40,587 nt of DNA from a bacterium (GCA_029558515.1 JAKQEM010000013.1:1-40587), one strand, 5' to 3'; positions 11,474 to 33,435 are shown, numbered from the stretch's first letter. The notes: generated by a model not told the origin, from the sequence alone. Made by a program: numbers and translations.

Positions 11474-11572
11474 GCACCGGATGCTCGCTTTGCTCGCATC
11501 GGTGCGGGGTAAACCCCACAGCAATGTTCCATGGTGGCTTGCCATGAGCGAGGAGCGAAGCGACGAGTCGAA

Positions 11573-11650
11573 TGGTGCGCCCGGCAGGATTTGAACCTAC
11601 GACTTCCAGATCCGCAATCTGGCGTTCTATCCGGGCTGAACTACGGGCGC
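11573..11650 (-). tRNA. tRNA-Arg (anticodon GCG)
   Basis: Cloverleaf on the minus strand: acceptor GCGCCCG/CGGGCGC, anticodon stem CCAGA/TCTGG with the loop TTGCGGA, T-arm GTAGG-TTCAAAT-CCTGC and an encoded CCA. The anticodon is GCG with G37. Most bacteria read CGC and CGU with an ACG anticodon edited to inosine, so a genomic GCG is unusual. Confidence 0.9.
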
Positions 11651-11743
11651 ACGCAAAGATTGAAAGAGCCCGCGAAGGCTACCATTCAACTGCAAAGGAA
11701 ACAATGGCAGACGCATCGCAGCGATTGAAGACCATCAAATGTA

Positions 11744-11772
11744 TTGACATTGTAATGACAATGAACTATCCT
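11744..11772 (+). promoter_or_regulatory. Promoter and operator of the RelB/YafQ pair
   Basis: TTGACA (11744-11749), 17 bases and TATCCT (11767-11772); the antitoxin ATG is 7 bases after the -10 box. The perfect inverted repeat CATTGT-AATG-ACAATG (11748-11763) lies between the boxes, a natural site for RelB autorepression. Confidence 0.75.
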
Positions 11773-11778
11773 GGGGCC

Positions 11779-12051
11779 ATGTCCTCAACCATCCAAGTCC
11801 GCACTGATCCCGCGACCAAAAAAGCCGCACAAATCATCCTGAGAAAATTAGGAATTGATCTGAGCACGGCCATCAACCTGTACCTCGTGCAGATTATCGA
11901 GAAGCGCGGGCTCCCATTCGAAGTTCTCACGGCCAATGGCTTCACGGAAGCAGAGGAACAAGCGATTCTGCGAGAAGTGAAGGAAGCAATCAACTATGGC
12001 AAAAGATACTCTTCCAATAAGGAGATGTTTGAGGATATTCTGCGTGAGTGA
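11779..12051 (+). CDS. RelB/DinJ-family antitoxin
   Basis: 90 residues. The N-terminal ribbon-helix-helix (STIQVRTDPATKKAAQIILRKLGIDLSTAINLYLVQII) binds DNA, and the C-terminal tail wraps the toxin. The motif GIDLSTAINLYLVQI followed by GLPFEV is diagnostic of RelB/DinJ. The ATG at 11779 is chosen over upstream in-frame codons because it sits at the predicted transcription start. Overlaps the toxin by 4 bases (GTGA). Confidence 0.92.
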   Translation: MSSTIQVRTDPATKKAAQIILRKLGIDLSTAINLYLVQIIEKRGLPFEVLTANGFTEAEEQAILREVKEAINYGKRYSSNKEMFEDILRE

Positions 12052-12335
12052 CACAGTATCAAACAGTAACTACCGCGCGATTCCGAAAAGATTTCCGCAG
12101 ATTGCATCGCGCCGGGTTTGATATTTCCAAACTCGACAAGATCATTGCGTTGCTGCGACAAGGACAGCCCCTGCCTCCACATGCCCGTGACCATGCGCTC
12201 CACGGAAACTTGCGCGATTTCAGAGCATGTCACATTGAACCTGATTGGATCCTGCTCTACGAAAAGCGTACAAATGAATTGATTTTGGTATTGGTGAGCA
12301 CGGGCGATCATCGCAGAACATTGGGCATTGAGTGA
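12048..12335 (+). CDS. YafQ/RelE-family mRNA interferase toxin
   Basis: 95 residues with a GTG start that overlaps the antitoxin stop. It has the YafQ active-site signature: a His in HALHGN, then FRACHIEPDWILLYE with the His-x3-Asp-Trp core, and the C-terminal His in VSTGDHRRTLG. Toxins of this family cleave mRNA at the ribosomal A site. The catalytic residues are all present, so it is probably active when the antitoxin is lost. Confidence 0.92.
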   Translation: MTQYQTVTTARFRKDFRRLHRAGFDISKLDKIIALLRQGQPLPPHARDHALHGNLRDFRACHIEPDWILLYEKRTNELILVLVSTGDHRRTLGIE

Positions 12336-17792: not shown

Positions 17793-18599
17793 ATGCTCGC
17801 GCTCAAGAACGTATCCAAAACCTTCGGCGCGGTTACGATCCTGCAGGGAGCGACGCTGCAGATCAATCCCAAGGATACCGTGTGCATCGTCGGACCTTCC
17901 GGCAGCGGAAAGTCCACCATCCTGCGGTTGCTGCTGCGCCTCGATGTGCCGACCAAAGGAACGGTCCTCGTGGATGGCGTCGATCTCACGGTCGTCCCGC
18001 CTCCCGTCCTGCAACTCTTCCGTCGCCGCACAGGCATCATCTTCCAGGAACCCGTCCTCCTCGCGCACGCCACCGCATCGGAAAACATCGCACTTCCGTT
18101 GGAGCTCGCCGGCTTGGCCGAAGCCGCCATCCGCCGCGCCGTGGAAGATCTCCTCCAACGTCTGGGGCTGACCGCCGCAGCGAACCGTTTCCCGGATCAG
18201 CTCTCGCTCTCGGAGCGCTCTCTCGTCGCCATCGCGCGCGCCATCGTCACCGCACCCATGGTCCTCATCGCCGATGAACCGTTTGCCAACCTCGACGTCA
18301 CGCAAGCCAAAACCGTCGCAGCGCTCATCGGGGCGCTCCGCAAGAACGGCACCACCGTCATCGCACTGAGCCGCTCCGATGCAACCGCAACCCTGCTGGA
18401 TGCCCGCATCATCCGCCTGCAACGGGGCGCCATCGCCGAAGAATCCAAGCCGGCAGCCGCAAGCGACGCCGGCCGCCACCGCATCCTGGAACGTCCGACC
18501 GCCTCCCCTGCATCCAAGGAAGAGGAAACGGACGATGCCAGAGGGCGCAAAATCCGCGTCACCGCGATACGCTCGGAGAGTGTGAAAGACAGCGCTTGA
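17793..18599 (+). CDS. ABC-type ATPase with degenerate signature and switch motifs
   Basis: 268 residues resembling FtsE/LolD-type or amino-acid ABC ATPases. Walker A GPSGSGKST (about residues 33-41), the Q-loop GIIFQEPVLLAH and Walker B VLIADEPFANLD are intact. The signature, normally LSGGQ, reads LSLSERS, and the switch histidine after Walker B is replaced (VIALSRSDATA). About 45 charged residues follow the domain. No permease gene is adjacent. It may bind ATP without normal turnover, or be a regulatory subunit. TACACT with TG-C (17780-17785) lies 7 nt before the ATG. The first leader promoter begins inside its stop codon. Confidence 0.75.
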   Translation: MLALKNVSKTFGAVTILQGATLQINPKDTVCIVGPSGSGKSTILRLLLRLDVPTKGTVLVDGVDLTVVPPPVLQLFRRRTGIIFQEPVLLAHATASENIALPLELAGLAEAAIRRAVEDLLQRLGLTAAANRFPDQLSLSERSLVAIARAIVTAPMVLIADEPFANLDVTQAKTVAALIGALRKNGTTVIALSRSDATATLLDARIIRLQRGAIAEESKPAAASDAGRHRILERPTASPASKEEETDDARGRKIRVTAIRSESVKDSA

Positions 18600-18624
18600 C
18601 TTGGCAAAAACTCCTACGTACTCT
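18596..18624 (+). promoter_or_regulatory. Promoter of the aromatic-leader attenuator
   Basis: TTGACT (18596-18601), 17 bases and TACTCT (18619-18624); the leader-peptide ATG is 13 nt further on. Confidence 0.65.
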
Positions 18625-18637
18625 CTCACTCGTGCTG

Positions 18638-18709
18638 ATGCAGCAGTTTGCCTACGGCGCCTATTGGTTCTCCTTTAGCCGGGAGAAGGCGTCAACGTAT
18701 GTGAGCTAA
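18638..18709 (+). CDS. Leader peptide rich in Phe/Tyr/Trp (attenuator)
   Basis: 23 residues starting MQQ, then FAYGAYWFSF, that is seven aromatic residues in ten, and a stop TAA at 18707. Too short to be an enzyme; its position between a promoter and an intrinsic terminator, and the run of aromatic codons (TTT, TAC, TAT, TGG, TTC, TTT), mark it as a regulatory leader peptide like pheL/trpL. TTCTCC (18668-18673) can pair with GGAGAA (18682-18687). GGGAGAAGGCG (18681-18691) is an exact 11-base complement of the terminator's 5' side (18735-18745). A ribosome stalled on Tyr-Trp-Phe would melt the first pairing and free the second, preventing termination. Confidence 0.75.
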   Translation: MQQFAYGAYWFSFSREKASTYVS

Positions 18710-18734
18710 GCACCCATCACACCTGCTCTCTACC

Positions 18735-18775
18735 CGCCTTCTCCCCGCTCCGAAGGCGTTTTTGTTTTTTCTTTT
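18735..18775 (+). terminator. Intrinsic terminator/attenuator behind the aromatic leader
   Basis: Stem CGCCTTC/GAAGGCG (18735-18741 with 18752-18758), then TTTTTGTTTTTTC. The 5' arm also pairs with 18681-18691, giving a longer competing antiterminator. Confidence 0.8.
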
Positions 18776-18782
18776 TCACCCT

Positions 18783-19148
18783 ATGACTAATCGTGATGTA
18801 CTCGAACACATCGATACGCTTGCAGCGCAGATGGTCGCAGACATTGCAGATGTTGATTTGGATCAATTAAATGATGCATTGGCAATCGCGCTCATTCATC
18901 CGCATCACATCAATCGCACCTCGTTCCGACCATCACCGGACGATTTGCGCAGGTTCATCACTATCGCCATACGCCATCTACTCCACATGGCGTACGATCA
19001 AACAAAGAACCTTGATTGGATCAGGGACATGGTCAATAGCCGCTTGCGCACCATGCTCTCTCAGCATAATCCAACCGTCCTTACTGAAAGAATGCGACGT
19101 ATGAGCGAGACACATGACGAACCGGAGTGGAAAGAAATCGCGGCATAG
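18783..19148 (+). CDS. Small unknown protein A, under an aromatic leader
   Basis: 121 residues, no recognised family, no signal peptide or membrane segment. Predicted largely helical (VLEHIDTLAAQMVADIAD, DLRRFITIAIRHLLHMAYD). His and Asp are frequent. Only five aromatic residues (2 Phe, 1 Tyr, 2 Trp) occur. The ATG follows directly after the terminator's T-run, so expression requires read-through of the attenuator. The role is unknown; the control logic implies it is made when charged aromatic tRNA is scarce. Confidence 0.6.
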   Translation: MTNRDVLEHIDTLAAQMVADIADVDLDQLNDALAIALIHPHHINRTSFRPSPDDLRRFITIAIRHLLHMAYDQTKNLDWIRDMVNSRLRTMLSQHNPTVLTERMRRMSETHDEPEWKEIAA

Positions 19149-19165
19149 CACCCGCTGCCATGTTC

Positions 19166-19193
19166 TTGACACACGCAGCGTCTCAACTAGAAT
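19166..19193 (+). promoter_or_regulatory. Promoter of the leucine-leader attenuator
   Basis: Perfect TTGACA (19166-19171), 16 bases, TAGAAT (19188-19193); the leader ATG is 12 nt further on. Confidence 0.75.
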
Positions 19194-19205
19194 CACCCCG
19201 TACTC

Positions 19206-19280
19206 ATGCAGCAACGAGGACTCCTCCTCGGCCTTAGCCTTCTTCTCCTCCTTACGGCGGAAGGGCGGCTGGCTGCGTGA
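19206..19280 (+). CDS. Leucine-rich leader peptide (attenuator)
   Basis: 24 residues, again starting MQQ. Ten are Leu, including LLLGLSLLLLL; nine of the ten Leu codons are CTC or CTT, which a tRNA-Leu with anticodon GAG would read. GGAAGGGCGGC (19259-19269), immediately after the Leu run, is complementary in 10 of 11 positions to GCCTCCCTTCC (19312-19322), the 5' side of the terminator. CCTTC (19238-19242) can pair with GAAGG (19260-19264) as the protecting hairpin. This is the layout of leuL-type attenuators. Confidence 0.8.
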   Translation: MQQRGLLLGLSLLLLLTAEGRLAA

Positions 19281-19312
19281 GTGAATAGGACACAGTGACT
19301 TCACCACCAGAG

Positions 19313-19345
19313 CCTCCCTTCCACGAAGCGGAGGTATTTTTATTT
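19313..19345 (+). terminator. Intrinsic terminator/attenuator behind the Leu leader
   Basis: CCTCC...TTC-CAC-GAA...GGAGG (19313-19334) with a small internal loop, followed by TATTTTTATTT. The sequence just after it is similar to that after the third terminator, so the two regulatory modules are probably related by duplication. Confidence 0.7.
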
Positions 19346-19361
19346 ATGTTTCCATTTTCCC

Positions 19362-19766
19362 ATGAATCACGAACCACCACACCCGACGATCACAGATGAA
19401 TTCTGGCGCATGGATGCGCATGAGAGATTCATGATGCGATCTGCCGGAATCGCAGTGCCACATCCTGCGGATATCTCACATAGCATCTCTTTCATCCCGG
19501 AGGAACAACTGTATGAAATCAAAAAAATTTCCGGCAAAGCTGCAATGAGTGCGGCATGGGCTATTATCGATGAAATCAACATGAATCCTAAGAACCTATC
19601 GTGGCAGGAGATTACTGCTATCTATAAACAATATATGGGTTGTGAGCCACAAAAAGATGAAACAGCAAACCCTGTTGTGAAAGCATTGGCCAATTTTGCT
19701 GGATATTTGAACGGGACAAAGGCGTATGTGCGCAATGCATTCATGCAAATTTGCGAACATATATGA
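19362..19766 (+). CDS. Small unknown protein B, under a leucine leader
   Basis: 134 residues, no recognised family, soluble. It has a Met/His-rich N-terminal third and a C-terminal helical part (LANFAGYLNGTKAYVRNAFM). Composition is striking: I count only four Leu in 134 residues, encoded by CTG, CTA, TTG and TTG, so the CTC and CTT codons sensed in its leader never occur in the gene. That would allow full-length synthesis while the matching tRNA-Leu is uncharged. Start ATG lies 16 bases after the terminator's T-rich tail. Confidence 0.6.
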   Translation: MNHEPPHPTITDEFWRMDAHERFMMRSAGIAVPHPADISHSISFIPEEQLYEIKKISGKAAMSAAWAIIDEINMNPKNLSWQEITAIYKQYMGCEPQKDETANPVVKALANFAGYLNGTKAYVRNAFMQICEHI

Positions 19767-19773
19767 TTTTCTC

Positions 19774-19801
19774 TTGCAAGGTTCATTTCCACTGATACCA
19801 T
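19774..19801 (+). promoter_or_regulatory. Promoter of the isoleucine-leader attenuator
   Basis: TTGCAA (19774-19779), 16 bases and extended -10 TG-A-TACCAT (19796-19801); the leader ATG follows after 10 nt. Confidence 0.6.
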
Positions 19802-19811
19802 CGCGCCGTTC

Positions 19812-19865
19812 ATGCATCTCTCCATCATCAACCAGAGCATTATTATCATCCCGCGCACCGCGTGA
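19812..19865 (+). CDS. Isoleucine-rich leader peptide (attenuator)
   Basis: 17 residues, MHLSIINQSIIIIPRTA, with six Ile encoded by ATC and ATT. Its stop overlaps the segment GGAGGT (19866-19871), which is complementary to ACCTCC (19898-19903) on the 5' side of the following terminator. Pairing here is shorter (6 bp) than in the two preceding leaders. Arrangement promoter-leader-terminator-gene is the same. Confidence 0.65.
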   Translation: MHLSIINQSIIIIPRTA

Positions 19866-19897
19866 GGAGGTAACTCTGGACTGGCACTTGGCTATCC

Positions 19898-19926
19898 ACC
19901 TCCCCGCGCAGGGGAGGTTTTTATTT
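19898..19926 (+). terminator. Intrinsic terminator/attenuator behind the Ile leader
   Basis: ACCTCCCC-GCGCA-GGGGAGGT (19898-19918), then TTTTATTTG. A strong, textbook hairpin between the leader peptide and gene C. Confidence 0.85.
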
Positions 19927-19945
19927 GTGTTTCCCTCCAATGCAC

Positions 19946-20416
19946 ATGTCAGAAACGGCAACGCGATGGACTGCGGAAGACATCCCTTCCGAGGAATACT
20001 GGGGGGCGATTCTGCGGGTGCACCTTTCGGAAGGTACGATCCGTCTGCGGTGCGCAACACGATCTTTGCGCGATCATGCGGAACACGCGGATGCAATCGT
20101 GGCACTGCTGCTTGCGAGCATACGTCCGGAATTACAAACGCTCATGGGAGTTCTCCCCACTCAATGCGCCATATCAATCGATGTGCATGACGCAAGCAGT
20201 CCCTATCTGCATCCACCCGAACGTGGTACTGCGTTTCAGTACTGGCTGCGCGTTTTTGATACACGAACGCATCTCTATTTCATTCTCATGACGCATGAGC
20301 ACCAACACGATGATCGCGGTACCCTCCAATGCATTGTGGGATTGAGAAACGCCTGCGCGGAATGGGTACATACACTACAACCTCTCACGCCATCATCGAC
20401 AGCACCAGCGCAATGA
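19946..20416 (+). CDS. Small unknown protein C, under an isoleucine leader
   Basis: 156 residues (158 if the ATG at 19940 is used), soluble, no recognised family. It looks like an alpha/beta fold, with a central helix (ADAIVALLLASIRPELQTLM) and beta segments (AFQYWLRVFDTRTHLYFILM); a His-rich stretch, THEHQHDD, could bind metal. Ile content is ordinary (nine, including ATA codons that the leader does not use). Start lies about 20 bases after the terminator's T-run. Confidence 0.6.
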   Translation: MSETATRWTAEDIPSEEYWGAILRVHLSEGTIRLRCATRSLRDHAEHADAIVALLLASIRPELQTLMGVLPTQCAISIDVHDASSPYLHPPERGTAFQYWLRVFDTRTHLYFILMTHEHQHDDRGTLQCIVGLRNACAEWVHTLQPLTPSSTAPAQ

Positions 20417-20705
20417 GCGAAGCGAGGGAAGCTCGAAAGAGCGGCCGGTGAGGAAGGGAGGTAATCATGCAATTTCGTCTGAAGGTCCACGGTTGAGGAC
20501 GAACGTGGGGGGATTATCTGAACCAAAACCGTGAAAATGTCATAATTTCCCCGGATGCAACTTTGCCTCTGCACGACAGGCAAAAAGCCCACAGTGGCAA
20601 TTTTTTGATATGCCATAGCACCATTTTTTGAGAGAAATCAAAAATCGACTTTACAGCAGACTCTCGCTGCATACACTGGCGGCTTATTCTCACTTCCATT
20701 TTCCA
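20417..20705. other. Intergenic stretch with possible weak attenuator
   Basis: It starts with a GAGCGAAGCGAG-type dispersed repeat. GGAAGGGAGGT then stands 5 nt before an ATG (20467) that opens only nine codons. Further on, TTGCCT (20563-20568) can pair with AGGCAA (20578-20583), or its TTGCC with GGCAA (20596-20600) ahead of six T residues. The nine-codon peptide has no amino-acid bias, so a fourth leader is not established. Confidence 0.35.
20650..20677 (+). promoter_or_regulatory. Promoter of small gene D
   Basis: TTTACA (20650-20655), 16 bases and TACACT (20672-20677), about 28 nt before the ATG. Confidence 0.5.
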
Positions 20706-21071
20706 ATGACTGACATTACCCGTGAGACCAGCGAGGAATTCGCCGCGGCAGATTTGGCTGCGAATGAGCGCGTTGCACAACTGTTTTTTCTCATGCGATT
20801 GAGCGGTAATCAAGCTGTGATAGATGTACAAGAATTTATGCAGTCACTATCACCACCGGAAAGAACGCATGTCATGCAAAAACTCAACACAATGCGCAAT
20901 CCGACGGATATTGAGACACGGCGTACGCGCAGATCGCTCATTTTGATTTTGACTCCCCATGCAAATCCCTTTTTTGCACCCCGTGTTCAACCTAGTGCAA
21001 CAAATAAACAAACTCGCTTTCCGGACGAGTTTGACACGCAAGCAGAGCAACCGGTATCTGCCTCCTTATGA
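20706..21071 (+). CDS. Small unknown protein D
   Basis: 121 residues, soluble, no recognised family; helical N-terminal two-thirds (FAAADLAANERVAQLFFLMR, VIDVQEFMQSLSPPERTHVM) and a low-complexity, probably disordered C-terminus. It has the same length as protein A and the same kind of helical composition but no alignable motif. Last of the four-gene island; unlike A-C it has its own promoter and no convincing leader peptide. Confidence 0.5.
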   Translation: MTDITRETSEEFAAADLAANERVAQLFFLMRLSGNQAVIDVQEFMQSLSPPERTHVMQKLNTMRNPTDIETRRTRRSLILILTPHANPFFAPRVQPSATNKQTRFPDEFDTQAEQPVSASL

Positions 21072-21835: not shown

Positions 21836-21991
21836 AATATAGGGGTTGCAAAGACTACAAAGAAAACAAGGAACCAAAACTTCCTCGCAAGTCTTCGTTA
21901 GCATCTAAATTTTAGTCGTTGTAGTCGTTGTAGTCCTTGTAGTCTTCGTAGTCTTCGCAGTCGTTGTAATCCTAGTAATCCTTGTAATCCT
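21836..21991. repeat. Degenerate GTAGTCCTT-type tandem repeat with complementary arm
   Basis: About nine GTTGTAGTC/CTTGTAGTC/CTTCGTAGTC units (21914-21985) stand opposite a shorter complementary arm (GACTACAAAGAAAACAAGG, 21851-21870). It begins in an otherwise featureless 286-base gap between the GerMN gene and trmB and runs to the trmB stop codon. Confidence 0.65.
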
Positions 21992-21996
21992 TTTCT

Positions 21997-22884: not shown

Positions 22885-24573
22885 ATGCAAAACATCTGCC
22901 CCCAATGCTCTTCTAACTTCGATATCACCGATGACGATCTCGCGTTTTTGGAAAAAGTATCTCCGATATTCAATGGCAAGAAGGAATTGATTCCCCCGCC
23001 GACCTTGTGTCCGGAGTGCAGGATGCAGCGGAGGCTCGCGTTTCGAAACGAGCGCAAACTGTATCACCGCAAATGTGATCTCACGGGCAAACAGATCGTA
23101 TCCGTATACGCAGCGGATAAACCGTTCAAAGCATACCAATCCGATGAATGGTACACGGACAAGTGGAACGCATTGGAGTACGGTCGCACTTTTGATTTCT
23201 CCAGGACTTTTTTTGAGCAATGGGCAGAATTGATGAGTGTAGTGCCTCGCATGTCCCTCGTGACTTCTCCCGAAGCGAATGCATTCAATTGTTCGTACAT
23301 CAACTTTGCCGGCCACAGCGAAAATTGCTACATGACATTTGACTCCGATTACAACAGAGATTCCATGTACACAAATGTTCTGAAACACTCGCAGAATTGC
23401 GTGGATTGCTCGTTCGTCCACGAGTGCGAGCTATGTTATGAATGTGTCGATTGCTATGCATCCTACAATCTGCGCTTCAGTGAGAATTGTACAAATTGCA
23501 GCGACTGCGCATTTCTCAAAAATTGCTCTGGGTGCAGACAATGCTTCTTCTGCTCCAACCTCGCACAGAAAGAATACCACATTTTCAACAAACCGTATTC
23601 CAAATCAGAGTACGAGCAACTCTTGGAATCCATGCAACTGAACACGTCATCCGGCTTGCACAAACTAAAGAATGAATTTGCGGAATTCACGAAACAATAT
23701 CCTCAGAAATTTCAGCACGCGCTGAAGGTGGAAAATGGTGTGGGGGATTATTTGGCAAATGTGCAAAATTGCCATCATTGCTTTGACATTGCCGATGCTC
23801 AGGATCTGCGATACTGCGACACACTGTACAAAGCAAAGGATTGCTGCGACGTCTCCTCCTTCGGAGAGAACATTGCATTGATTTATGATTCAGGAACAAT
23901 TGGAGTAGAAGGTTACAATCTGCAATTTTGCTTCAATTGCGTAATCAATTGCTCGGATCTGCTGTATTGCAACGAATGTCATCGTGCATCACATTGCTTC
24001 GGATGCATCGGTGTGGGAGAAAAATACTGCATCCTCAACAAGCAGTACACACAGGAGGAGTATGACACGCTCGTTCCTCAGATCATTGCTCACATGCGGA
24101 CCACAGGAGAATGGGGGCAGTTTTTCCCCGGTGCCCTTTCTCCTTTTGGATACAGCGAAACCATGGCACAAGAGCAATTTCCACTCACCAAAGAATCAGC
24201 GCTTACGAACGGATGGAATTGGTATGAAGAGCGCACAGAAGCATCAGACAACTACATGGGCCCAATGATAACTATCCCCGATTCCATCACCGATGTCCCG
24301 GACGACATCACCAAGCAGATTTTGAAGTGTGAAGCCACCGGCAAGCCCTACAAGATCATTCCGCAGGAACTGAAGTTCTATCGTGAAATGGGCATTCCGA
24401 TCCCGCGGAAATGTCCCGACCAAAGGCATAAAGAACGCATGGCGCTGCGAAATCCACGCAAGCTCTGGAAGAGAAATTGCATGAAATGCAGTAAAGAAAT
24501 CGAAACGACGTACAGTCCGGAGAGACCGGAGATCGTCTATTGTGAATCTTGCTACCTTTCTTCCGTGTACTAA
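22885..24573 (+). CDS. Cys-rich zinc-ribbon/repeat protein, copy 1
   Basis: 562 residues with about 39 cysteines, no signal peptide or membrane segment. Layout: N-terminal ribbon-like module with C5-x2-C8 and C42-x2-C45 (FNGKKELIPPPTLCPECRMQ); a repeat block of NCxxC/CxxCxxC units ending in the motif FNKPYSKSEYE (about residue 235); a second such block ending in YCILNKQYTQEEYDTL (about 385); and a C-terminal module (KCEATGKPYKI, IPRKCPDQRHKERMALRN, NCMKC, YCESCYLSSVY) that resembles the N-terminal one. Probably zinc-binding and cytoplasmic; the function is unknown. I remember similar CPR proteins being labelled hypothetical. First of seven paralogues here. Confidence 0.8.
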   Translation: MQNICPQCSSNFDITDDDLAFLEKVSPIFNGKKELIPPPTLCPECRMQRRLAFRNERKLYHRKCDLTGKQIVSVYAADKPFKAYQSDEWYTDKWNALEYGRTFDFSRTFFEQWAELMSVVPRMSLVTSPEANAFNCSYINFAGHSENCYMTFDSDYNRDSMYTNVLKHSQNCVDCSFVHECELCYECVDCYASYNLRFSENCTNCSDCAFLKNCSGCRQCFFCSNLAQKEYHIFNKPYSKSEYEQLLESMQLNTSSGLHKLKNEFAEFTKQYPQKFQHALKVENGVGDYLANVQNCHHCFDIADAQDLRYCDTLYKAKDCCDVSSFGENIALIYDSGTIGVEGYNLQFCFNCVINCSDLLYCNECHRASHCFGCIGVGEKYCILNKQYTQEEYDTLVPQIIAHMRTTGEWGQFFPGALSPFGYSETMAQEQFPLTKESALTNGWNWYEERTEASDNYMGPMITIPDSITDVPDDITKQILKCEATGKPYKIIPQELKFYREMGIPIPRKCPDQRHKERMALRNPRKLWKRNCMKCSKEIETTYSPERPEIVYCESCYLSSVY

Positions 24574-24633
24574 CCCTTCTTACCTTTCTGCCCTTTCTGC
24601 CTTTCCTCATCCCCCTCACTTTCCTCACCTCCC

Positions 24634-26310
24634 ATGCCTTCCTGCGCAAACCAGTGGTGTCAGCAGAGCTTCGAAATCACCGACGCCGATCTCGCGTTTT
24701 TGGAAAAAGTATCTCCGATATTCAATGGCAAGAAGGAAATGATTCCTCCGCCGACCTTGTGTCCGGAGTGCAGGATGCAACGGAGGCTCCTCTTTCGGAA
24801 CGATCTCTGTCTCTACCACCGAAAGTCTGATCTCACCGGTAGGGCTATGATTTCCATGTACGCACAGGACAAGCCTTACAAAGTCTACGATCAAGACGAG
24901 TGGTGGAGCGATCGGTGGAATGAATTGGATTACGGTCGTGACTTCGATTTCTCTCGAACGTTTACGGAGCAATTCCGAGAGCTCAATCTGGCAATACCGC
25001 ATCAAGGGCTCTTCACGACGAACGCGGAAAACAGCTACTATACCAACCATTCACTCAACACGAAGAACTGCTACCTCATTGCGGGGGCGACCAATCTGGA
25101 AGACTGTCTCTTCGGCCGTTTCGTCATCAGCGGCAACGACGTGGTCGACGGCCTTTCGCTCTACGGCTGTGCGTGGTGCTACGAAGGCATCGCATCCCAA
25201 AACTGTTACCAGTGTCTGTTCTTCCGGCACTCGCGGGATTGCAGCAGCTGCCTCATGATCGACGATTGCCAGTCCTGCAAAAACTGCTGCATGTGCTTCG
25301 GACTGAAGAGCAAAGAATACTGTTATTTGAATGAACAATTGACCAAGGAGGAATACGAACAGCGGATTCAACATCATTTCCCGATGACGGTCGATGGCAT
25401 TACAGCGATGCGCCGACAGCTTGCGGAATTATCAATACGATTCCCGCATCGTGCTCTCCAGGTTTTCAGCTGTGAAGACTGCACCGGAGACATGGTCTTC
25501 AGCAGTCAGCGTTGTGAGAGTTGCTTTGACTGCACCGATTCTCAGGATTGCAAATACATCAGCAATTCGCCGAACAGTAACAATAGTCAGGATGCTAATT
25601 ACACGGCACCGCAGGGAATAGAGCAGTGTTACAACGTTAACTCAACGTGTGGTATGTGTAATAGTGGGACATTTTTAGCTTGGTACTGTTCGGATGTCTT
25701 GTACAGTCGCGAGTGCCATCGAGGCGCCAATCTCTTCGGCTGCGTCGGCATCCGGCACAAGGAGTACTGCATTCTGAATAAACAATACACAAAAGAGGCA
25801 TATGAGAAATTGGTGCCAAAAATTATCGAGCATATGCGAAAGACCGGTGAGTGGGGTGAATACCTTCACCCGAGTCTTTCGACGATGGGCTACAACGAGA
25901 CGCTGGCACAGGAGTACTTCCCAATCACGAAAGAAGAAGCACTCTCACGCGGGTGGCAATGGCATGACGAAGCCGAACCGCAGCAGCAGTACCTCGGCCC
26001 CGACTACGTTGTCCCCGATTCCATCACCGATGTCCCGGACGACATCACCAAGCAGATTTTGAAGTGCGAAGTCACCGGCAAGCCCTACAAGATCATCCCG
26101 CAGGAACTGAAGTTCTACCGCGAGATGGGCATTCCGATTCCACGGAAGTGTCCCGACCAAAGGCATAAAGAACGCATGGCGCTCAGAAATCCGCGCAAGC
26201 TCTGGAAGAGAAATTGCATGAAATGCAGAAAGGAAATCGAAACGACGTACAGTCCGGAGAGACCGGAGATCGTCTACTGCGAAGATTGCTACCTTTCTTC
26301 TGTGTACTAA
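24634..26310 (+). CDS. Cys-rich zinc-ribbon/repeat protein, copy 2
   Basis: 558 residues, same layout as copy 1, but with a longer first knuckle (C4-x4-C9, CANQWC) and different repeat blocks (DCSSCLMIDDCQSCKNCCMC; ESCFDCTDSQDC). Block-closing motifs are YCYLNEQLTKEEYEQ and YCILNKQYTKEAYEK. It starts 60 bases after copy 1 with no promoter between them, only a CTTTCTGCC-rich tract, so the two are probably co-transcribed. The DNA of its C-terminal 300 bases is nearly identical to that of copies 1 and 3. Confidence 0.8.
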   Translation: MPSCANQWCQQSFEITDADLAFLEKVSPIFNGKKEMIPPPTLCPECRMQRRLLFRNDLCLYHRKSDLTGRAMISMYAQDKPYKVYDQDEWWSDRWNELDYGRDFDFSRTFTEQFRELNLAIPHQGLFTTNAENSYYTNHSLNTKNCYLIAGATNLEDCLFGRFVISGNDVVDGLSLYGCAWCYEGIASQNCYQCLFFRHSRDCSSCLMIDDCQSCKNCCMCFGLKSKEYCYLNEQLTKEEYEQRIQHHFPMTVDGITAMRRQLAELSIRFPHRALQVFSCEDCTGDMVFSSQRCESCFDCTDSQDCKYISNSPNSNNSQDANYTAPQGIEQCYNVNSTCGMCNSGTFLAWYCSDVLYSRECHRGANLFGCVGIRHKEYCILNKQYTKEAYEKLVPKIIEHMRKTGEWGEYLHPSLSTMGYNETLAQEYFPITKEEALSRGWQWHDEAEPQQQYLGPDYVVPDSITDVPDDITKQILKCEVTGKPYKIIPQELKFYREMGIPIPRKCPDQRHKERMALRNPRKLWKRNCMKCRKEIETTYSPERPEIVYCEDCYLSSVY

Positions 26311-26361
26311 CCCTTCTTACCTTTCTGCCCTTTCAGCCTTCCCTCACCTTCCCCACTTCCC

Positions 26362-26652
26362 TCACCTTTCTGCCTTCCCACCGATGCCCACCGCTTTCTG
26401 CAACATCGGCACCTTCACGACTTCCAGATCGTCAAGGCGTTCATCCAGATTGCCGATCTGTACGGACAATAGCTCAACTTTTCGTTCAAGCTTGCTCAAA
26501 CGCGCATCAATGGCATCAAATCGTTTATCCATGAGCGAAAATCTGGAATCGACCTGCGCAAAACGTGCATCCATATGTTGCATGATTCTGCGTTCCATCC
26601 CTTGCATATGCTGCAGGAGAATCGCCGGAGTGATGTCCTGGTTATCGGCCAT
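26362..26652 (-). CDS. Small coiled-coil protein, companion 1
   Basis: 96 residues: MADNQDITPAILLQHMQGM, then an uninterrupted heptad pattern (RFSLMDKRFDAIDARLSKLE, VELLSVQIGNLDERLDDLE) predicted as a parallel coiled coil, and the tail VPMLQKAVGIGGKAER. The last codons run into the CTTTCTGCC repeat tract. TTGCAG (26684-26689), 17 bases and TAACAT (26661-26666) form a promoter 8 nt before the ATG. Paralogue of the gene at 28502-28819; both lie antisense-oriented just after a Cys-rich gene. Function unknown. Confidence 0.65.
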   Translation of the reverse strand: MADNQDITPAILLQHMQGMERRIMQHMDARFAQVDSRFSLMDKRFDAIDARLSKLERKVELLSVQIGNLDERLDDLEVVKVPMLQKAVGIGGKAER

Positions 26653-26827
26653 GGATCCGCATGTTATGCCTCCCCGATATCCGCTGCAATCCAACCGCGG
26701 AGCTTTCTTTCCCACAATCCCGCTGATCTCTTCCCGAAGCCCTCTTTCCTGTTCTGTTCCCTCGTAGAACACCCCCGTCATTTCGCATTTTTCATTTTTC
26801 ATTTCCCATTTTCCATTCATAAAATCT

Positions 26828-28495
26828 ATGCAGCAGACTTGCGCAAACCAGTGGTGTCAGCAAAGCTTCGAGATCACCGATGACGATCTCGCGTTTTTGG
26901 AAAAAGTATCTCCGATATTCAATGGCAAGAAGGAATTGATTCCCCCGCCGACCTTGTGTCCGGAGTGCAGGTGGCAAACACGCATGGGATTTCGCAATGA
27001 ATGGAATCTCTATCATCGAAAATGCAACATGTCGGGCAAGCAACTCATCTCAATGTTCGCGCCAGACAGTCCGTATCCCGTCTACGATCAGGATGTTTGG
27101 TGGAGCGACGCGTACGATCCGTTGATGTACGGGAGGGACTTTGATTTCAACACTCCGTTCTTTGAGCAGTTTGATACATTGCATCGTGTTGTTCCAAAGG
27201 TTTCCATCCAGAATGCAAAGAGCGAAAACAGCGTCTACACCAACTACTCGGCATCGAACAAGAACTGCTACATGGTCGTCGGCGGTTTGGGCGATGAAGA
27301 TTGTCTCTTTGGGTACCGCGTGTTTTACTCCACTGATTGTACGGACTGCTACGACCTCTTCCAGTGTCAGCGCTGCTATGAGTGCGCGGAATCCAGCGGA
27401 CTCTATGACTGCATCCACTGCCACAACTGCCAAAACTCCTCGAACCTCCTTCACTGCGTTGACTGCGTCGGTTGCCAAAATTGCTACGGTTGCGCGGGCC
27501 TGCGTAATAAGGAATTTCATCTCTATAATGAAGCGCTCAGCGAGGAGGACTACCGCACGCAAGTGGCGAAGCTCGGTCTTCTCCCATTCCCGGAGAATCA
27601 AGCACGTATTCGACAGGTGCACTTGCAGGCGCCTCGTCTCTTCACACGCCAAATCCAGTCGGAAAACGTCACGGGTGATCAACTGCTGGAATGTCAGAAC
27701 TGCTTCGAGTGTTACACGATCAAACGCTCACAGGATTGTCGCTTCGTCATCAATGCCGATCACGACAAAGATTGCCACGACGCGAATTTCATAGATGACT
27801 GTGAACTTCAGTATTATTCCGCCAACCTGCAGGATAACTACCGCACTATTTTCTGTTCACTGCTCTGGTACACGAAGGAATGCTCCTACACGATGAACAG
27901 CTTCCACAGTCATCACCTCTTCGGATGCAGCGGTATGAAAAAGCATGCGTACTGCATCCTCAATAAACAGTACACACAGGAAGAGTATGACACTCTCGTC
28001 CCTCAGATCATTGCTCACATGCAGCATACCGGGGAATGGGGGCAACACTTTCCCATCCGCATCTCTCCCCTCGGGTACAACGAAACCGTCGCGTTTGAAA
28101 CACTCCCTCTTGCTCAAGAGGAAACTCTCGCACGCGGCTGGAAATGGAGCAATCCCCAGGAAACACAATCACAATACCTCGGCCCCGACTACGTTATCCC
28201 CGACTCCATCACCGATGTCCCGGACGACATCATCAAGCAGATTCTGAAATGTGAAGTCACCGGCAAGCCCTACAAGATCATCCCGCAGGAATTGAAGTTC
28301 TATCGTGAAATGGGCATTCCGATCCCGCGGAAGTGTCCGGATCAACGACATAAGGAACGCATGGCGCTGCGAAATCCACGCAAGCTCTGGAAGAGAAATT
28401 GCATGAAATGCAGTAAAGAAATCGAAACGACGTACAGTCCGGAGAGACCGGAGATTGTGTATTGCGAAGAATGCTACCTCGCTTCCGTGTACTAA
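26828..28495 (+). CDS. Cys-rich zinc-ribbon/repeat protein, copy 3
   Basis: 555 residues; first knuckle C5-x4-C10. Bases 26879-26971 are identical to 22930-23022 of copy 1, while the middle is different (CYECAESSGLYDCIHCHNCQ, then NSSNLLHCVDCVGCQNCYGC). Block-closing motifs are FHLYNEALSEEDYRT and YCILNKQYTQEEYDT. The C-terminal DNA again matches copies 1 and 2 almost exactly. Its start is preceded by a run of CATTTTTCATTT-like units; a good -10 box is not clear. Confidence 0.8.
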   Translation: MQQTCANQWCQQSFEITDDDLAFLEKVSPIFNGKKELIPPPTLCPECRWQTRMGFRNEWNLYHRKCNMSGKQLISMFAPDSPYPVYDQDVWWSDAYDPLMYGRDFDFNTPFFEQFDTLHRVVPKVSIQNAKSENSVYTNYSASNKNCYMVVGGLGDEDCLFGYRVFYSTDCTDCYDLFQCQRCYECAESSGLYDCIHCHNCQNSSNLLHCVDCVGCQNCYGCAGLRNKEFHLYNEALSEEDYRTQVAKLGLLPFPENQARIRQVHLQAPRLFTRQIQSENVTGDQLLECQNCFECYTIKRSQDCRFVINADHDKDCHDANFIDDCELQYYSANLQDNYRTIFCSLLWYTKECSYTMNSFHSHHLFGCSGMKKHAYCILNKQYTQEEYDTLVPQIIAHMQHTGEWGQHFPIRISPLGYNETVAFETLPLAQEETLARGWKWSNPQETQSQYLGPDYVIPDSITDVPDDIIKQILKCEVTGKPYKIIPQELKFYREMGIPIPRKCPDQRHKERMALRNPRKLWKRNCMKCSKEIETTYSPERPEIVYCEECYLASVY

Positions 28496-28501
28496 CCCTT
28501 C

Positions 28502-28819
28502 TTACCTTTCTGCCCTTTCTGCCCTTCCTCCCCTTCCTGCCTTCCCACCGATGCCAACCGCTTTCTGCAACATCGGCACCTGCACGACTTCCAGGTCATC
28601 CAATCGCTCATCCACATTGCCGATCTGCACGGACAGTAATTCGACTTTACGCTCCAGTTTGCCTAAACGTGCATTAATTTCGTCAAATCGAAGGTCCATC
28701 TTGTCAAACTTCTTCATAATGCGCTGCTCCATTGTTTGCATTTGCATGGAAAAATCTCCACGCATGGCCTGCATGTGCTGCAGGAGAATCGCCGGTGTAA
28801 CGTCTTGGTCATCCGCCAT
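28502..28819 (-). CDS. Small coiled-coil protein, companion 2
   Basis: 105 residues, paralogous to the gene at 26362-26652: MADDQDVTPAILLQHMQAM, heptads (MKKFDKMDLRFDEINARLGK, VELLSVQIGNVDERLDDLEV) and a C-terminus drawn from the repeat tract (GGKAGRGGRAERAER). Promoter TTGAAG (28851-28856), 17 bases, TATTCT with TG-G (28828-28833), 8 nt before the ATG. The duplication evidently included a Cys-rich gene and its companion. Confidence 0.65.
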   Translation of the reverse strand: MADDQDVTPAILLQHMQAMRGDFSMQMQTMEQRIMKKFDKMDLRFDEINARLGKLERKVELLSVQIGNVDERLDDLEVVQVPMLQKAVGIGGKAGRGGRAERAER

Positions 28820-28992
28820 GGAACGTGAGAATACCAATGCCTCGGTCTCCCTTCAATCCGATCACGACCTTTCTTTGCGAGATTGTTTTTGTCATCATAC
28901 CTTTTGCCTTTAAACAAGCCCTCTTTCCCCGTTCCGTCCGATAAAAGAACGACTCGCAATCTCGGACGTTCACGGTGCGTTATACTCCGTGC

Positions 28993-30663
28993 ATGCAGCA
29001 GACCTGCCGCCAATGCTCGACCTCCTTCGAGATCACCTCCGACGATCTTGCGTTTCTGGAGAAAGTCTTGCCGGTGTTCAACGGAAAGCCAGCGTTGATT
29101 GCGCCGCCAAGTTCATGCCCATTGTGTCGCTGTCGTATGCGAATGGCATGGCGAAATGAAAGAACCCTCTATCGGAGAAATTGTGCTCTGTGCGAGAAGA
29201 GCATGATCACCATTTTTCATCCGGATGAACCCTACATCGTCATCTGCACCTCCTGCTTCTGGTCGGATCAATGGGATCCGCTCACGTACGGACAGACCTA
29301 TGATTTTTCTCGACCATTCACCGATCAGTTTGTTGAACTCCTGCATCGTGTGCCACTCATCGGTCTCATCAATTTGAACACGGAAAAATCCGAATACTGT
29401 CATCGTATATTTAGCGGCCGTAACAACTATCTCTCCTTCATCGCAATCTTTGAGCCCGAAAACCTGTACTACACCTATTACACCATCTCCTGCAAAGATT
29501 GCGTCGATGTCACCAATTGTCAGTACTGCGAGCGATGCTATGAATTGACGGATTCCGAACGATGTTATCAATGTGCGTTTGGCAACCGCATCAAAAATTG
29601 TCGCGATTCTATGTTCTTGGAAGATTGTGTCGGCTGCTCCCATTGTTACCGTTGCAAGAATCTACATCAAAAATCCTACTGCATCGAAAACAAGCAATAT
29701 TCCAAAGAAGCATACGAAGCGGAAATACACACGAAACATCTGGATTCGATTGCGGCACTCGCACAACAACAAAAAATGGCACAAAACTTTCATCTGACAT
29801 TGCCTCATCGGGCAGCCGTACGCATCAACTGTGAGTATGCGACCGGAGCCAATATCTACAATTGTCGTGAGAGCACGAACATATTCGATTTTTATGAATC
29901 AGAGCGCATGGTCCACTGCGCTCAGGGAGAGGTAAGCCATGATTGCATGGATTGCTTCGGATTCGGAAAAGGTGAGTTTTGCTACGAATCGACCAGTTTC
30001 ATGGGTGGACAGCTTCTACGTTTTTGCATCGATTGTACGACGGGATCGGACATGCTGTACTCATACAGTTGCTTTCAAAATTCTGAGCATTGCTTCGGTT
30101 GTGTTTCTCTTAAACGTGGATCTTATTGCATATTGAACACGCAGTACACGCAAGAAGAATATGAATCACTTGTCCCCAAGATTATCGCGCATATGCGATA
30201 TATCGGAGAGTGGGGAAGTTTTTTCCCGCCGTCATTGTCTCCCTATGGTTACAATGAAACTGAAGGCGCAACGTTTTCGGCAGTATCGGAGGAACAAGCG
30301 GCGCGACTCGGGTTGCGTTGGCGCATACCGAATACACAGCACCGCATACAACAAATTGCTTCGATTCCTGATCGCATCACCGACGTGGTTGACACGATTG
30401 TGGATACCATTCTCCACTGTGCCGCATGTGGTAAACAATTCAAAATCATTCTGCAGGAACTGAATTTCCTGCGAGACTTGAAAGTTGCGCTCCCGACTTG
30501 TTGTCCCGACTGCCGCCATCGGACACGCATGGCTTCCCGTGCCCCTTTTCAACTCTGGAAGAGAAATTGTCAAAAATGCAGCAAAGAAATGGATGCATCC
30601 TACGCGCCCGAGCGGCCGGAAATTGTGTACTGTGAAAATTGCTACTTGGCTTCTGTCTATTGA
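28993..30663 (+). CDS. Cys-rich zinc-ribbon/repeat protein, copy 4
   Basis: 556 residues, more divergent than copies 1-3 (N-terminal LPVFNGKPALIAPPSSCPLC; extra knuckle CALCEKS). Block-closing motifs are YCIENKQYSKEAYEA and YCILNTQYTQEEYES. The C-terminal module keeps its cysteines (CAACGKQFKI, CCPDCRHRTRM, NCQKC, YCENC). TATACT (28981-28986) ends 6 nt before the ATG, so this copy has its own, probably leaderless, transcript. Confidence 0.8.
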   Translation: MQQTCRQCSTSFEITSDDLAFLEKVLPVFNGKPALIAPPSSCPLCRCRMRMAWRNERTLYRRNCALCEKSMITIFHPDEPYIVICTSCFWSDQWDPLTYGQTYDFSRPFTDQFVELLHRVPLIGLINLNTEKSEYCHRIFSGRNNYLSFIAIFEPENLYYTYYTISCKDCVDVTNCQYCERCYELTDSERCYQCAFGNRIKNCRDSMFLEDCVGCSHCYRCKNLHQKSYCIENKQYSKEAYEAEIHTKHLDSIAALAQQQKMAQNFHLTLPHRAAVRINCEYATGANIYNCRESTNIFDFYESERMVHCAQGEVSHDCMDCFGFGKGEFCYESTSFMGGQLLRFCIDCTTGSDMLYSYSCFQNSEHCFGCVSLKRGSYCILNTQYTQEEYESLVPKIIAHMRYIGEWGSFFPPSLSPYGYNETEGATFSAVSEEQAARLGLRWRIPNTQHRIQQIASIPDRITDVVDTIVDTILHCAACGKQFKIILQELNFLRDLKVALPTCCPDCRHRTRMASRAPFQLWKRNCQKCSKEMDASYAPERPEIVYCENCYLASVY

Positions 30664-30684
30664 TGGTTTTGGGTAGGATTCAAC

Positions 30685-30712
30685 CTGAGCAAGCGAAGCG
30701 CGTCGAAGGGTG
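30685..30712. repeat. GAGCAAGCGAAGCG-type dispersed repeat
   Basis: CCTGAGCAAGCGAAGCGCGTCGAAGG-like sequence downstream of copy 4 belongs to the dispersed family seen beside the tRNAs and near 20417. Confidence 0.4.
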
Positions 30713-30744
30713 AAGCATGCTATCTCTCTTCCGTGTACTTAAGA

Positions 30745-31584
30745 TCAAAGGAAATATGGCTCAAGTATCCGCCGAATGCGCTTCGCCTCGTCCGTGCTAC
30801 GACGGACGGCGATCTTGCAGCGCGTTTTCATGCGGAAAATGTCCGCGAAGAGTTCCGGATCGAAGTCCTCAATGCGTTGAATCGTCTGGAAGAAAAACGC
30901 AAAGTGTCGGCTGATGGCTTGCGGAAAAATGCATTCAATCACGTATTCACCGCAAGACCACAGAGCCACACCTTCTTTCGGAAAACCAGTGTCTCTTGCC
31001 ACCGCCGTTTCATATCCCGAAACATGGATGGCCTTTTCGCCATAGCGATCGAGAAATGTATCATTTCCAAAAAGGAGATGACAATAAATGCCAGCGGCGA
31101 CAATACTTTGATTGAGACGTGTTTCCGTATCGCGCATCCCGAGCGAATACCACGGATGGGAATTGTACACGAACCACTCACGTTCATCGGTCGTTCCAGA
31201 AAGTTCCAAAATCATGAAGTTCCAAACGGCATCAAGTTCAAAAAGTGAATTCGCGGTGAAAATGCATTTCTCTCCCTCATGCAACGTATCCAATCGCAAT
31301 GCTTTGCTCTGCTCCGATGCGAAAGAAGCCTGTGCACGTTCCACGAAATCACCGATCCGCGACACCCAAACATGATGGAGCGCAACGGTACCGTGCGTTC
31401 GCACGATGATCTGCTTGTCACTCATCTGCGAAAGCAGTCGATACAGTGTCGGCAACGATACCTTCACCGATGCATCCGATTGCAGCAGCGCAAGAAGCGA
31501 GCGCGTCGAAATGGGACCATGCTCGGCAAGGAGCTGGAGAACCGCACTCTGGAGCGGATGGAGAGGATCGATCTGCGTCAGCAT
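30745..31584 (-). CDS. Winged-helix-like regulator with unknown C-terminal domain
   Basis: About 279 residues. The N-terminal 70 fit a winged helix (PLQSAVLQLLAEHGPISTRS, LPTLYRLLSQMSDKQIIVRT). The remaining 200, with aromatic-rich EREWFVYNSHPWYSLGMRD, have no recognised family. An ATG at 31605 is also in frame but lies upstream of the best -10 (TG-A-TACTAT, 31596-31601 complement), so 31584 is preferred. It is divergent from copy 5 with only about 90 bases between starts, mirroring the trmB/copy 1 arrangement. Confidence 0.55.
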   Translation of the reverse strand: MLTQIDPLHPLQSAVLQLLAEHGPISTRSLLALLQSDASVKVSLPTLYRLLSQMSDKQIIVRTHGTVALHHVWVSRIGDFVERAQASFASEQSKALRLDTLHEGEKCIFTANSLFELDAVWNFMILELSGTTDEREWFVYNSHPWYSLGMRDTETRLNQSIVAAGIYCHLLFGNDTFLDRYGEKAIHVSGYETAVARDTGFPKEGVALWSCGEYVIECIFPQAISRHFAFFFQTIQRIEDFDPELFADIFRMKTRCKIAVRRSTDEAKRIRRILEPYFL

Positions 31585-31674
31585 CTGACACCATGATAGT
31601 ATCATTTTTTGAGAATTTCATATGATTTTTCTCACATTTCTTTACAATACGGTCTGAATGATGAAAATGCGACA

Positions 31675-33366
31675 ATGTCATCCGATGAACAGCACTGCAC
31701 ATCCTGCGGCTCTGCGTACGCCATTCTCGAAGAAGACCGAGCATTTTATGCAACCGTCTCCCCCGTCCTCGCGGGCACCACCGCAATCATTCCTTCTCCC
31801 ACCCTCTGCCCGGACTGCCGCCAGCAGCGACGCCTCGCTTGGCGCAACGAACGGACCATCTACCAACGAACGTGTGACTTGTGCAAAAAGAATATCGTCT
31901 CATCGCACCATCCCGACCACCCCTACCCCGTCCACTGTGTGCAATGCTGGTGGGGCGACGGGTGGGATCCGCATTCATACGGATTGCCGTTCGATTCGCA
32001 GCAACCCTTCTTCGAGCAATTCCTCGATCTGCAGCGCAGAGTCCCGCAGCTTTCCATGCAAAACGACGAGGGAATCACGAGTATGAACAGCGAGTACTGC
32101 TACGACATTTCCCGCTGCAAAAACTGCTACCGTATCATCGGGAGCTGGTTCTTGGAAGACTGCATGTATTCACTCTGCGTCAATCACTCAAAAGATTTAG
32201 TGGATTGCAATACGGTAAGTGAAAACTGCGAGATGGTTTATGAATCACTGGACTCGCAGCATCTCTATCATTGTCAGTATGTTCAAAACTGCGAGAATTG
32301 CAGTGATTGCTTCTTCGGCATAGATTTGAAAGGATGCAGCGACTGCATCGCGTGCGTCGGGTTGCGCCAGAAACGCTTCTGCCTGTGGAACGAACAGCTG
32401 ACGGAGGAGGAATTCCGTACGCGGACCGCCGGCATCAATCCGGGATCGTGGGCACAGGTGCGGCAACTGCGGGAGAAGTTCGACGCGTGGTCTTTGCAGT
32501 TTCCACGACTCTACGCCAACCTGCAAAACTGCGAAGGCTGCAGCGGAAACAATCTCTTCAACTGCAAGGACGTGCGCGGATGGAGCATTTTCAATGCCGA
32601 GGCATGCAAGTACGTCGACCGCAGCGATGGGCCGGTGCACAGCTATGACATCATCAATACCGGCGGTCCCCAATGGTGCTACGACTGCGTCACGCCCGAT
32701 GAATCCTACAGGACGCATTTCTCGACGTGGTGCTGGAAATGCAAAAATGTCATGCTAAGCGACAACTGCCACAGTTGCGAATCGTGCTTGGGATGCATCG
32801 GACTGAAGCGAGCGAAATACTGCATCCTCAATAAGCAATACACGAAGGAAGAGTACGAACGTCTCGCGCTGCAGATCATCCGGTCGCTGGAAGCGGAAGG
32901 AGCATGGGGCGGACATCTCCCTATCACCCACTCGCCATACGCGTACAACGAATCGGCGGCGATGGACTACTATCCGCTGACCGAGAAAGAAGTGACGCGA
33001 CGCGGGTGGAACTGGCGACAGAATTTGCCGTACACGACCGGCAAGCAGACTGTGGAATGGGACCAAGTCCCTGACGCCATTCGAGACGTACCGGACACCT
33101 TCACGCAAGAAATTCTCTCCTGCACGACATGCGGCAAGAACTTCAAAGTCGTCGAAAAAGAACTCGCATTCCTCCGCTCCATGCCGGCGCCCATCCCACG
33201 GCAATGCTTCGACTGCCGGCATTTGGCGCGTTTCCGACGCAAGACGCCGACGCACATCTGGACGCGCCCGTGCGATTCTTGCGGGAAGCAGCTGGAATCG
33301 ACATATGCGCCAGGCCGACCGGAAAAGGTGTATTGTGAAGAGTGCATCTTGCGCGAAGTGTATTAA
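31675..33366 (+). CDS. Cys-rich zinc-ribbon/repeat protein, copy 5
   Basis: 563 residues, a divergent member: the N-terminal C8-x2-C11 module reads VSPVLAGTTAIIPSPTLCPDC, and the middle blocks (YHCQYVQNCENCSDCFFGID; CHSCESCLGC) close with FCLWNEQLTEEEFRT and YCILNKQYTKEEYER. All C-terminal knuckles are present (CTTCGKNF, CFDCRH, CDSCGK, YCEEC). TACAAT (31643-31648) lies 26 nt before the ATG, the same distance as in copy 1, so these two copies, both divergent from a regulator, have short leaders while others look leaderless. Confidence 0.8.
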   Translation: MSSDEQHCTSCGSAYAILEEDRAFYATVSPVLAGTTAIIPSPTLCPDCRQQRRLAWRNERTIYQRTCDLCKKNIVSSHHPDHPYPVHCVQCWWGDGWDPHSYGLPFDSQQPFFEQFLDLQRRVPQLSMQNDEGITSMNSEYCYDISRCKNCYRIIGSWFLEDCMYSLCVNHSKDLVDCNTVSENCEMVYESLDSQHLYHCQYVQNCENCSDCFFGIDLKGCSDCIACVGLRQKRFCLWNEQLTEEEFRTRTAGINPGSWAQVRQLREKFDAWSLQFPRLYANLQNCEGCSGNNLFNCKDVRGWSIFNAEACKYVDRSDGPVHSYDIINTGGPQWCYDCVTPDESYRTHFSTWCWKCKNVMLSDNCHSCESCLGCIGLKRAKYCILNKQYTKEEYERLALQIIRSLEAEGAWGGHLPITHSPYAYNESAAMDYYPLTEKEVTRRGWNWRQNLPYTTGKQTVEWDQVPDAIRDVPDTFTQEILSCTTCGKNFKVVEKELAFLRSMPAPIPRQCFDCRHLARFRRKTPTHIWTRPCDSCGKQLESTYAPGRPEKVYCEECILREVY

Positions 33367-33382
33367 GATTGCATGCATACTG

Positions 33383-33411
33383 TTGCATTTTGCATACGAT
33401 TTGACTATACT
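33383..33411 (+). promoter_or_regulatory. Promoter of the second RelB/RelE pair
   Basis: TTGCAT (33383-33388), 17 bases, TATACT (33406-33411). The perfect palindrome TGCATGCA (33370-33377) just upstream, and GCAT repeats across the region, may bind the antitoxin. Confidence 0.65.
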
Positions 33412-33435
33412 CTGCATGTACATTCCCTTTTTCCT

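Follow-up and report, generated by a model that had tools for sequence, protein, structure and literature searches.

Predicted amino-acid-specific attenuators, probably left from biosynthetic operons, precede small, fast-evolving genes in Candidatus Peribacteraceae

Results

Architecture of the island

The DNA stretch analysed here (the window; 40,587 nucleotides, GCA_029558515.1 JAKQEM010000013.1:1-40587) is contig C4 of a 1.31-Mb genome of Candidatus Peribacteraceae, a family of the candidate phyla radiation (CPR); the genome is 99% complete. Directly after rsmG and the gene of an ABC ATPase, three modules follow in series (18596–20416, Table 1). Each module has a sigma-70-type promoter, a leader of 17–24 residues, a GC-rich hairpin with T-run and an open reading frame (ORF) ∼20–27 nt past the hairpin, and the −35 box of module A overlaps the end of the ABC ATPase gene. 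The leaders of modules A, B, and C are enriched in aromatic residues, Leu, and Ile, respectively, and in all three the end of the leader (segment 2) is complementary to the 5′ arm (segment 3) of the module's own terminator (3:4), such that a 2:3 antiterminator could form instead. The three modules, the specificities of their leaders, and an island of small genes had been proposed in a sequence-only reading of this DNA and are all present, with gene D as a further island member that has no attenuator; the antiterminator pairing of each module is an addition to that description. No module matched an Rfam covariance model at the gathering score.

A broad scan for leaders and terminators gave many artefacts within coding regions and strict filters were required. 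The strict scan covered 97.8% of the genome and demanded a leader with at least 4/7 control residues, an antiterminator, a terminator, and a downstream ORF. Five sites were retrieved, namely modules B and C, a Cys module on another contig, and two apparent coding-region artefacts; the same scan of the reversed sequence retrieved none. Module A fails only one of the filters, because its leader sits in a longer open frame of 143 codons.

The Leu attenuator in related genomes

In 20 loci around rsmG from relatives we compared the corresponding regions and found homologous Leu leaders, for example, MHQSSLLLGLSLLLLTAEGGLRA and MNKQALLLGASLLLLMAEERLRA. An alignment of five genera has the TTGACA hexamer, the Leu codons, and the antiterminator core GGCGGAAG all invariant, and among the homologous leaders Leu residues are kept with different codons. 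A covariance model of the Leu element has matches (counted at E up to 0.1) in 59 of the 74 genomes of the family and in 35 of its 40 genera, 49 genomes being strong matches. Beyond the family only two weak matches were found among 288 genomes of the class, and a DNA pattern run over 84,980 species genomes was limited to records of Peribacteria/Peregrinibacteria; genomes with the element bear the names Candidatus Peribacter, Peribacteraceae, and Peregrinibacteria. A common locus, on the same strand as rsmG and 2.2–6.3 kb downstream of it, is shared by the elements of 26 genomes, among them the present one. The Leu leaders of L159/L165, L180, L181, L191, and L193 contain a repeat-like insertion (CCTGAGC..GTCGAAGGG type), and the frame is kept.

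The antiterminator covaries strongly. Among 60 distinct sequences, changes on both sides occur at 19 of the 23 pairs, and 120 compensatory cells were observed compared to 29.8 after shuffling and at most 18 for slid pairings; five of the sequences had served to build the model to which the alignment was fitted, and this fit inflates the pairing, but the slid pairings give a clear result. When only the 43 sequences without a recognised biosynthetic next gene are considered (some 24 genera; nearly all small ORFs, with one aromatic leader before DAHP synthase included, L208), 75 compensatory cells remain as against 19.5 after shuffling. On average 14.7 of 17 helix pairs are formed in this small-ORF set and 15.1 in the leuA-linked set. 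Thus, the attenuators in front of small ORFs are as well conserved as those linked to leuA, and the RNA is not simply decaying.

The Leu module combines a Leu-rich leader ORF with predicted translation and a mutually exclusive antiterminator and terminator which have an arm in common and compensatory changes. Conservation of the leader bias and compensatory changes in relatives had been put forward beforehand as a test of the island, and the outcome is positive for the Leu module and moderately so for the aromatic one.

Tandem or clustered attenuators, several of them with small ORFs, were also seen in other genera (G086:C10 10144–10663; G065:C123; L207; L208), so that the island of the window is not the only one of its kind.

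The aromatic module

The segment ..YGAYWFSF.. of leader A aligns with ..YGAYTFSF.. of a leader that heads DAHP synthase in relatives. The aromatic covariance model R2 scores 109 bits on module A, which is itself one of the five training sequences of R2, and with module A included the model detects related elements across the family. Leader bias and antiterminator are conserved in these relatives, with moderate covariation in the antiterminator (n=10 sequences).

Genes behind the attenuators and lost pathways

Biosynthetic genes are found behind homologous elements of relatives: leuA is the next gene in ten loci (identified with NCBIfam on a representative), a leader with ..VIITLRII.. heads the branched-chain aminotransferase gene ilvE, and DAHP synthase is headed by MVSRSYAFGFWFFAFMAGKGRA and by the ..YGAYTFSF.. 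leader. A small ORF follows instead in 41 loci, which come from 24 genera and include this genome; 33 of them have Leu-rich leaders, with ORFs of 85 aa in the median. In most genomes the attenuator match and the start of the small gene are 11–50 nt apart. Both states coexist within four genera, and the order attenuator, small ORF, leuA is realized in two genomes.

No LeuA is encoded anywhere in this genome, and DAHP synthase, branched-chain aminotransferase, and ACT proteins gave no match in 97.8% of it. In the family, LeuA was found in 20 of 74 genomes, and of the 49 genomes in which the Leu attenuator is a strong match, 30 lack a LeuA-family protein. The gene of the sensed pathway is hence missing behind the Leu module here and present in the leuA-bearing relatives. 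As a rule, an attenuator regulates a gene of the pathway for the amino acid that it senses, a coupling that the mechanism itself does not need.

Two loci deserve a separate mention. Behind the Leu attenuator of L203 (5919–6848, genome G073) a shortened LeuA-like protein without DTTLRDGEQ is encoded, possibly a decay intermediate or a reused enzyme. In L180 (genome G096) a 72-aa ORF lies between the attenuator and leuA, and its C-terminal half (SVVDEHAFCHEAGIHQ) resembles the VVGxNAFAHEAGIHQ stretch of LeuA.

The small proteins

An N-terminal motif (type RY-x3-ER-x-MMR-x2-GI-x-V) is common to protein B and to small ORFs that follow the Leu attenuator in many genera, and in the sequence examined it is confined to attenuator-linked small ORFs. 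In two relatives the gene for a member of the protein B family separates the Leu attenuator from leuA. For the pooled motif-bearing ORFs synonymous sites are saturated (pS 0.76, the proportion of differing synonymous sites) and non-synonymous sites are not (pN 0.46), which argues that the protein is constrained at the motif; outside of it the B-type proteins diverge fast.

The structure prediction and homology searches that the sequence-only reading had advised yielded neither a fold match nor a usable family. The AlphaFold model of a 64-aa homologue of B, encoded next to leuA (L186/L212), has a modest pLDDT (the per-residue confidence score) of 71 and that of protein B from the window a poor one of 49, and Foldseek with the predicted B structures against the PDB gave no match below E 1. 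A profile search also pointed to ribosomal protein bS20 (E 0.18), which we regard as a chance match. We also considered that B is a decayed LeuA; a LeuA-like stretch is found in one small ORF only (L180) and the common motif does not seem to derive from LeuA. Pfam, NCBIfam, PHROGs, and PADLOC searches with proteins A–D returned nothing usable, and the coding signal of genes A–D is weak. Homologues of gene A were sought in 58 relatives and none was found; gene C has two weak matches only in the family.

Near the Leu attenuators of L190, L202, and L218 a second type of small protein (TxEEAxxLVxxRFGCxxHxLP..) is encoded, which in L190 is fused to the B motif.

Module C, further modules, and other features of the window

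No homologous module was found in relatives for module C, which rests on its anatomy. The layout of modules A–C recurs in the Cys module, for the protein of which the homologue search gave nothing convincing, and a weaker module has a Val/Ile/Leu leader. Promoter-like sites such as the one before gene D are about as frequent as expected by chance.

Table 1. Features of the island (contig C4) and of two further modules of the same genome
Feature	Position	Strand	Remarks
Promoter-like site A	18596–18624	+	−35 TTGACT 18596, 17-nt spacer, −10 TACTCT 18619
Leader peptide A, aromatic	18638–18709	+	MQQFAYGAYWFSFSREKASTYVS; homologous to DAHP synthase leaders of relatives; control codons TTT..TAC..TAT TGG TTC..TTT
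Antiterminator A	18681–18745	+	GGGAGAAGGCG (18681–18691) : CGCCTTCTCCC (18735–18745); duplex −22.8 kcal/mol
Terminator A	18735–18770	+	hairpin 18735–18758, CGCCTTC/GAAGGCG stem, then T-run
Gene A, 121 aa	18783–19148	+	no homologue found
Promoter B	19166–19193	+	TTGACA 19166, 16-nt spacer, TAGAAT 19188; −35 invariant in five genera
Leader peptide B, Leu	19206–19280	+	MQQRGLLLGLSLLLLLTAEGRLAA; homologues in 59/74 family genomes; control codons CTC CTC CTC..CTT CTT CTC CTC CTT
Antiterminator B	19259–19322	+	GGAAGGGCGGC (19259–19269) : GCCTCCCTTCC (19312–19322); duplex −22.7 kcal/mol
Terminator B and T-run	19312–19345	+	hairpin 19312–19334; −13.6 kcal/mol
Gene B, 134 aa	19362–19766	+	bears attenuator-linked motif
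Promoter-like site C	19774–19801	+	TTGCAA 19774, 16-nt spacer, TACCAT 19796; weak consensus
Leader peptide C, Ile	19812–19865	+	MHLSIINQSIIIIPRTA; no homologue found; control codons ATC ATC..ATT ATT ATC ATC
Antiterminator C	19864–19905	+	GAGGAGGT (19864–19871) : ACCTCCCC (19898–19905); duplex −19.7 kcal/mol
Terminator C and T-run	19898–19927	+	hairpin 19898–19918; −16.6 kcal/mol
Gene C, 156–158 aa, orphan	19940–20416	+	no convincing homologue
Promoter-like site before gene D	20650–20677	+
Gene D, 121 aa	20706–21071	+	island member without attenuator
Cys module	contig C43		leader MTFTCCCCLPSITRPFGRE, terminator, then 139-aa gene
Val/Ile/Leu module, weaker	contig C39		leader MHLIPSLVVVKTIRVTAEGMLHV

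Apart from the island, the window encodes about seven paralogous Cys-rich proteins of ∼560 aa each (22885–40581). Their C-terminal parts (..ITDVPDDITKQILKCEVTGKPYKIIPQELKFYREMGIPIPRKCPDQRHKERMALRNPRKLWKRNCMKC..) are nearly identical in several of them, which suggests recent duplication or gene conversion. Small genes that lie side by side in twos and resemble toxin–antitoxin modules (RelB/RelE-like) are located at 11572–12335, 33373–33986, and 38283–38794, and degenerate short repeats of the GTAGTCNTNGTAGTC type lie between two genes at 21880–21995.

Discussion

We consider it probable that the elements described here are ribosome-mediated attenuators of amino-acid operons which have outlived their lost pathways and which now would control small, fast-evolving genes upon shortage. 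Judged from the sequences, this mechanism is well supported for the Leu module, moderately supported for the aromatic module, and weakly supported for the Ile module; the Cys module is a candidate attenuator by its anatomy, as is the Ile module. According to the proposed mechanism the polymerase would start at the promoter and a ribosome would translate the leader. With an ample supply of the amino acid that the leader senses (aromatic, Leu, or Ile), the ribosome would reach the leader stop codon, the 3:4 terminator would form and transcription would end before the small gene. With too little of the charged tRNA, the ribosome would stall in the run of control codons, segment 2 at the leader end would pair with segment 3, the 5′ arm of the terminator, and the small gene would be transcribed.

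The Leu and aromatic modules appear to descend from the attenuators under which leuA and DAHP synthase remain in other Peribacteraceae. We base this on the homology of the elements and, for the Leu module only, on the shared locus. As leuA is absent in most genera and both states are mixed within genera, the direction of the change was presumably the loss of leuA; this genome is without the biosynthetic genes, and small genes specific to the lineage would have stayed behind the attenuators or come to lie there. Complete Peribacteria genomes are reported to have few amino-acid synthesis genes with uptake from outside inferred, and attenuators are not mentioned (PMC4736985). The bacterium that carries the island depends on a host and is probably an auxotroph. 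Amino-acid-specific, ribosome-mediated attenuators in front of small proteins of a probable auxotroph were also what the sequence-only reading had supposed, and the missing pathway genes agree with this. Its further suggestion that the system has no part in biosynthesis needs correction, since in relatives leuA, DAHP synthase, and ilvE are under these same attenuators. The island is therefore best seen as a derived state of ordinary biosynthetic attenuators. From its suggestion of a starvation response or scavenging system, the starvation response may be retained as a conjecture and scavenging has no specific support.

The most serious alternative is that promoters and attenuators persist by inertia after leuA, DAHP synthase, and other genes were lost and that the ORFs behind them are chance or decaying frames. 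Several observations speak for such relics or weigh against the reading that we prefer. The downstream ORFs are 55–195 aa long and mostly without similarity to other proteins, A, C, and D lack a convincing homologue (D without a search in relatives) and have weak coding signals, and one close pair of B-type small ORFs has a dN/dS ratio (non-synonymous to synonymous substitution rate) of 0.89, that is, almost neutral. The LeuA-like protein of L203 and the LeuA-like fragment of L180 look like decay. In addition, comparative support is absent for the Ile, Cys, and Val/Ile/Leu modules, and the covariation counts of the Leu element are inflated as explained above. However, compensatory RNA changes are found over the small-ORF sequences from some 24 genera, the leaders remain in frame, and the B motif is conserved as protein despite saturated synonymous sites. 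The relic explanation is weakened in particular by the covariation within the small-ORF set; we regard it as rather unlikely on the whole, and it may still hold for individual genes.

A trans-acting product is a more distant explanation: what counts would then be the leader peptide or the RNA ending at the terminator, and the small genes would be secondary. The leader RNA is indeed conserved and the small genes are hypervariable, and in Sinorhizobium meliloti the attenuator product peTrpL, a leader peptide, acts in trans beyond its operon (PMC7298713). On the contrary, the antiterminator, which is useful for read-through only, is among the best conserved parts, and the short distance between attenuator and small gene is kept in most genomes, so that we judge this explanation improbable. 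That ordinary small genes with terminators, without attenuation, are at hand, with a Leu leader that by eye resembles a signal peptide, is hardly credible given four specificities with one architecture in a single genome, and for the Leu and aromatic modules it is contradicted by the covarying antiterminator, the aromatic model, and the homologues with matching control codons before leuA, ilvE, and DAHP synthase.

Attenuators that have outlived their pathways can be compared with known systems. The enterobacterial leuL, trpL, pheL, and ilvL elements likewise have a leader with control codons and alternating antiterminator and terminator structures directly before the regulated gene. However, no sequence relation was found (no Rfam match); the elements of Candidatus Peribacteraceae form a family of their own, and in most of these genomes they would regulate a small ORF and not an enzyme gene. 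The Corynebacterium ilvBNC operon (upstream ORF (uORF)/ilvB-II motif) also has a leader ORF or attenuator before branched-chain genes, but this attenuator controls biosynthesis and belongs to another lineage (PMC10272879; PMC11857589). An attenuator before a small non-biosynthetic gene, as in the island, is given by uORF attenuation of DUF1127 in S. meliloti, for which, however, sensing of ribosome availability or translation efficiency via C-rich codons and not of one amino acid has been proposed (PMC12218461). Our literature searches found no report of leader-peptide attenuation in Peribacteria.

Attenuators are usually taken to belong to biosynthetic operons. The conserved family described here lacks its pathway in some 24 genera and precedes small proteins, which shows how a regulatory RNA can persist after the loss of its pathway and be put to new use. 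More tentatively, and short of an even chance in our estimate, obligately dependent CPR bacteria that have lost amino-acid synthesis could keep aromatic, Leu, Ile, and Cys attenuators as a parallel array of sensors, each of which would induce its own small, fast-evolving protein when the supply of that amino acid stops, as a response to shortage or host contact that replaces biosynthetic control. The island would thereby offer a handle on how dependent bacteria sense their amino-acid supply, with concrete small proteins named for testing.

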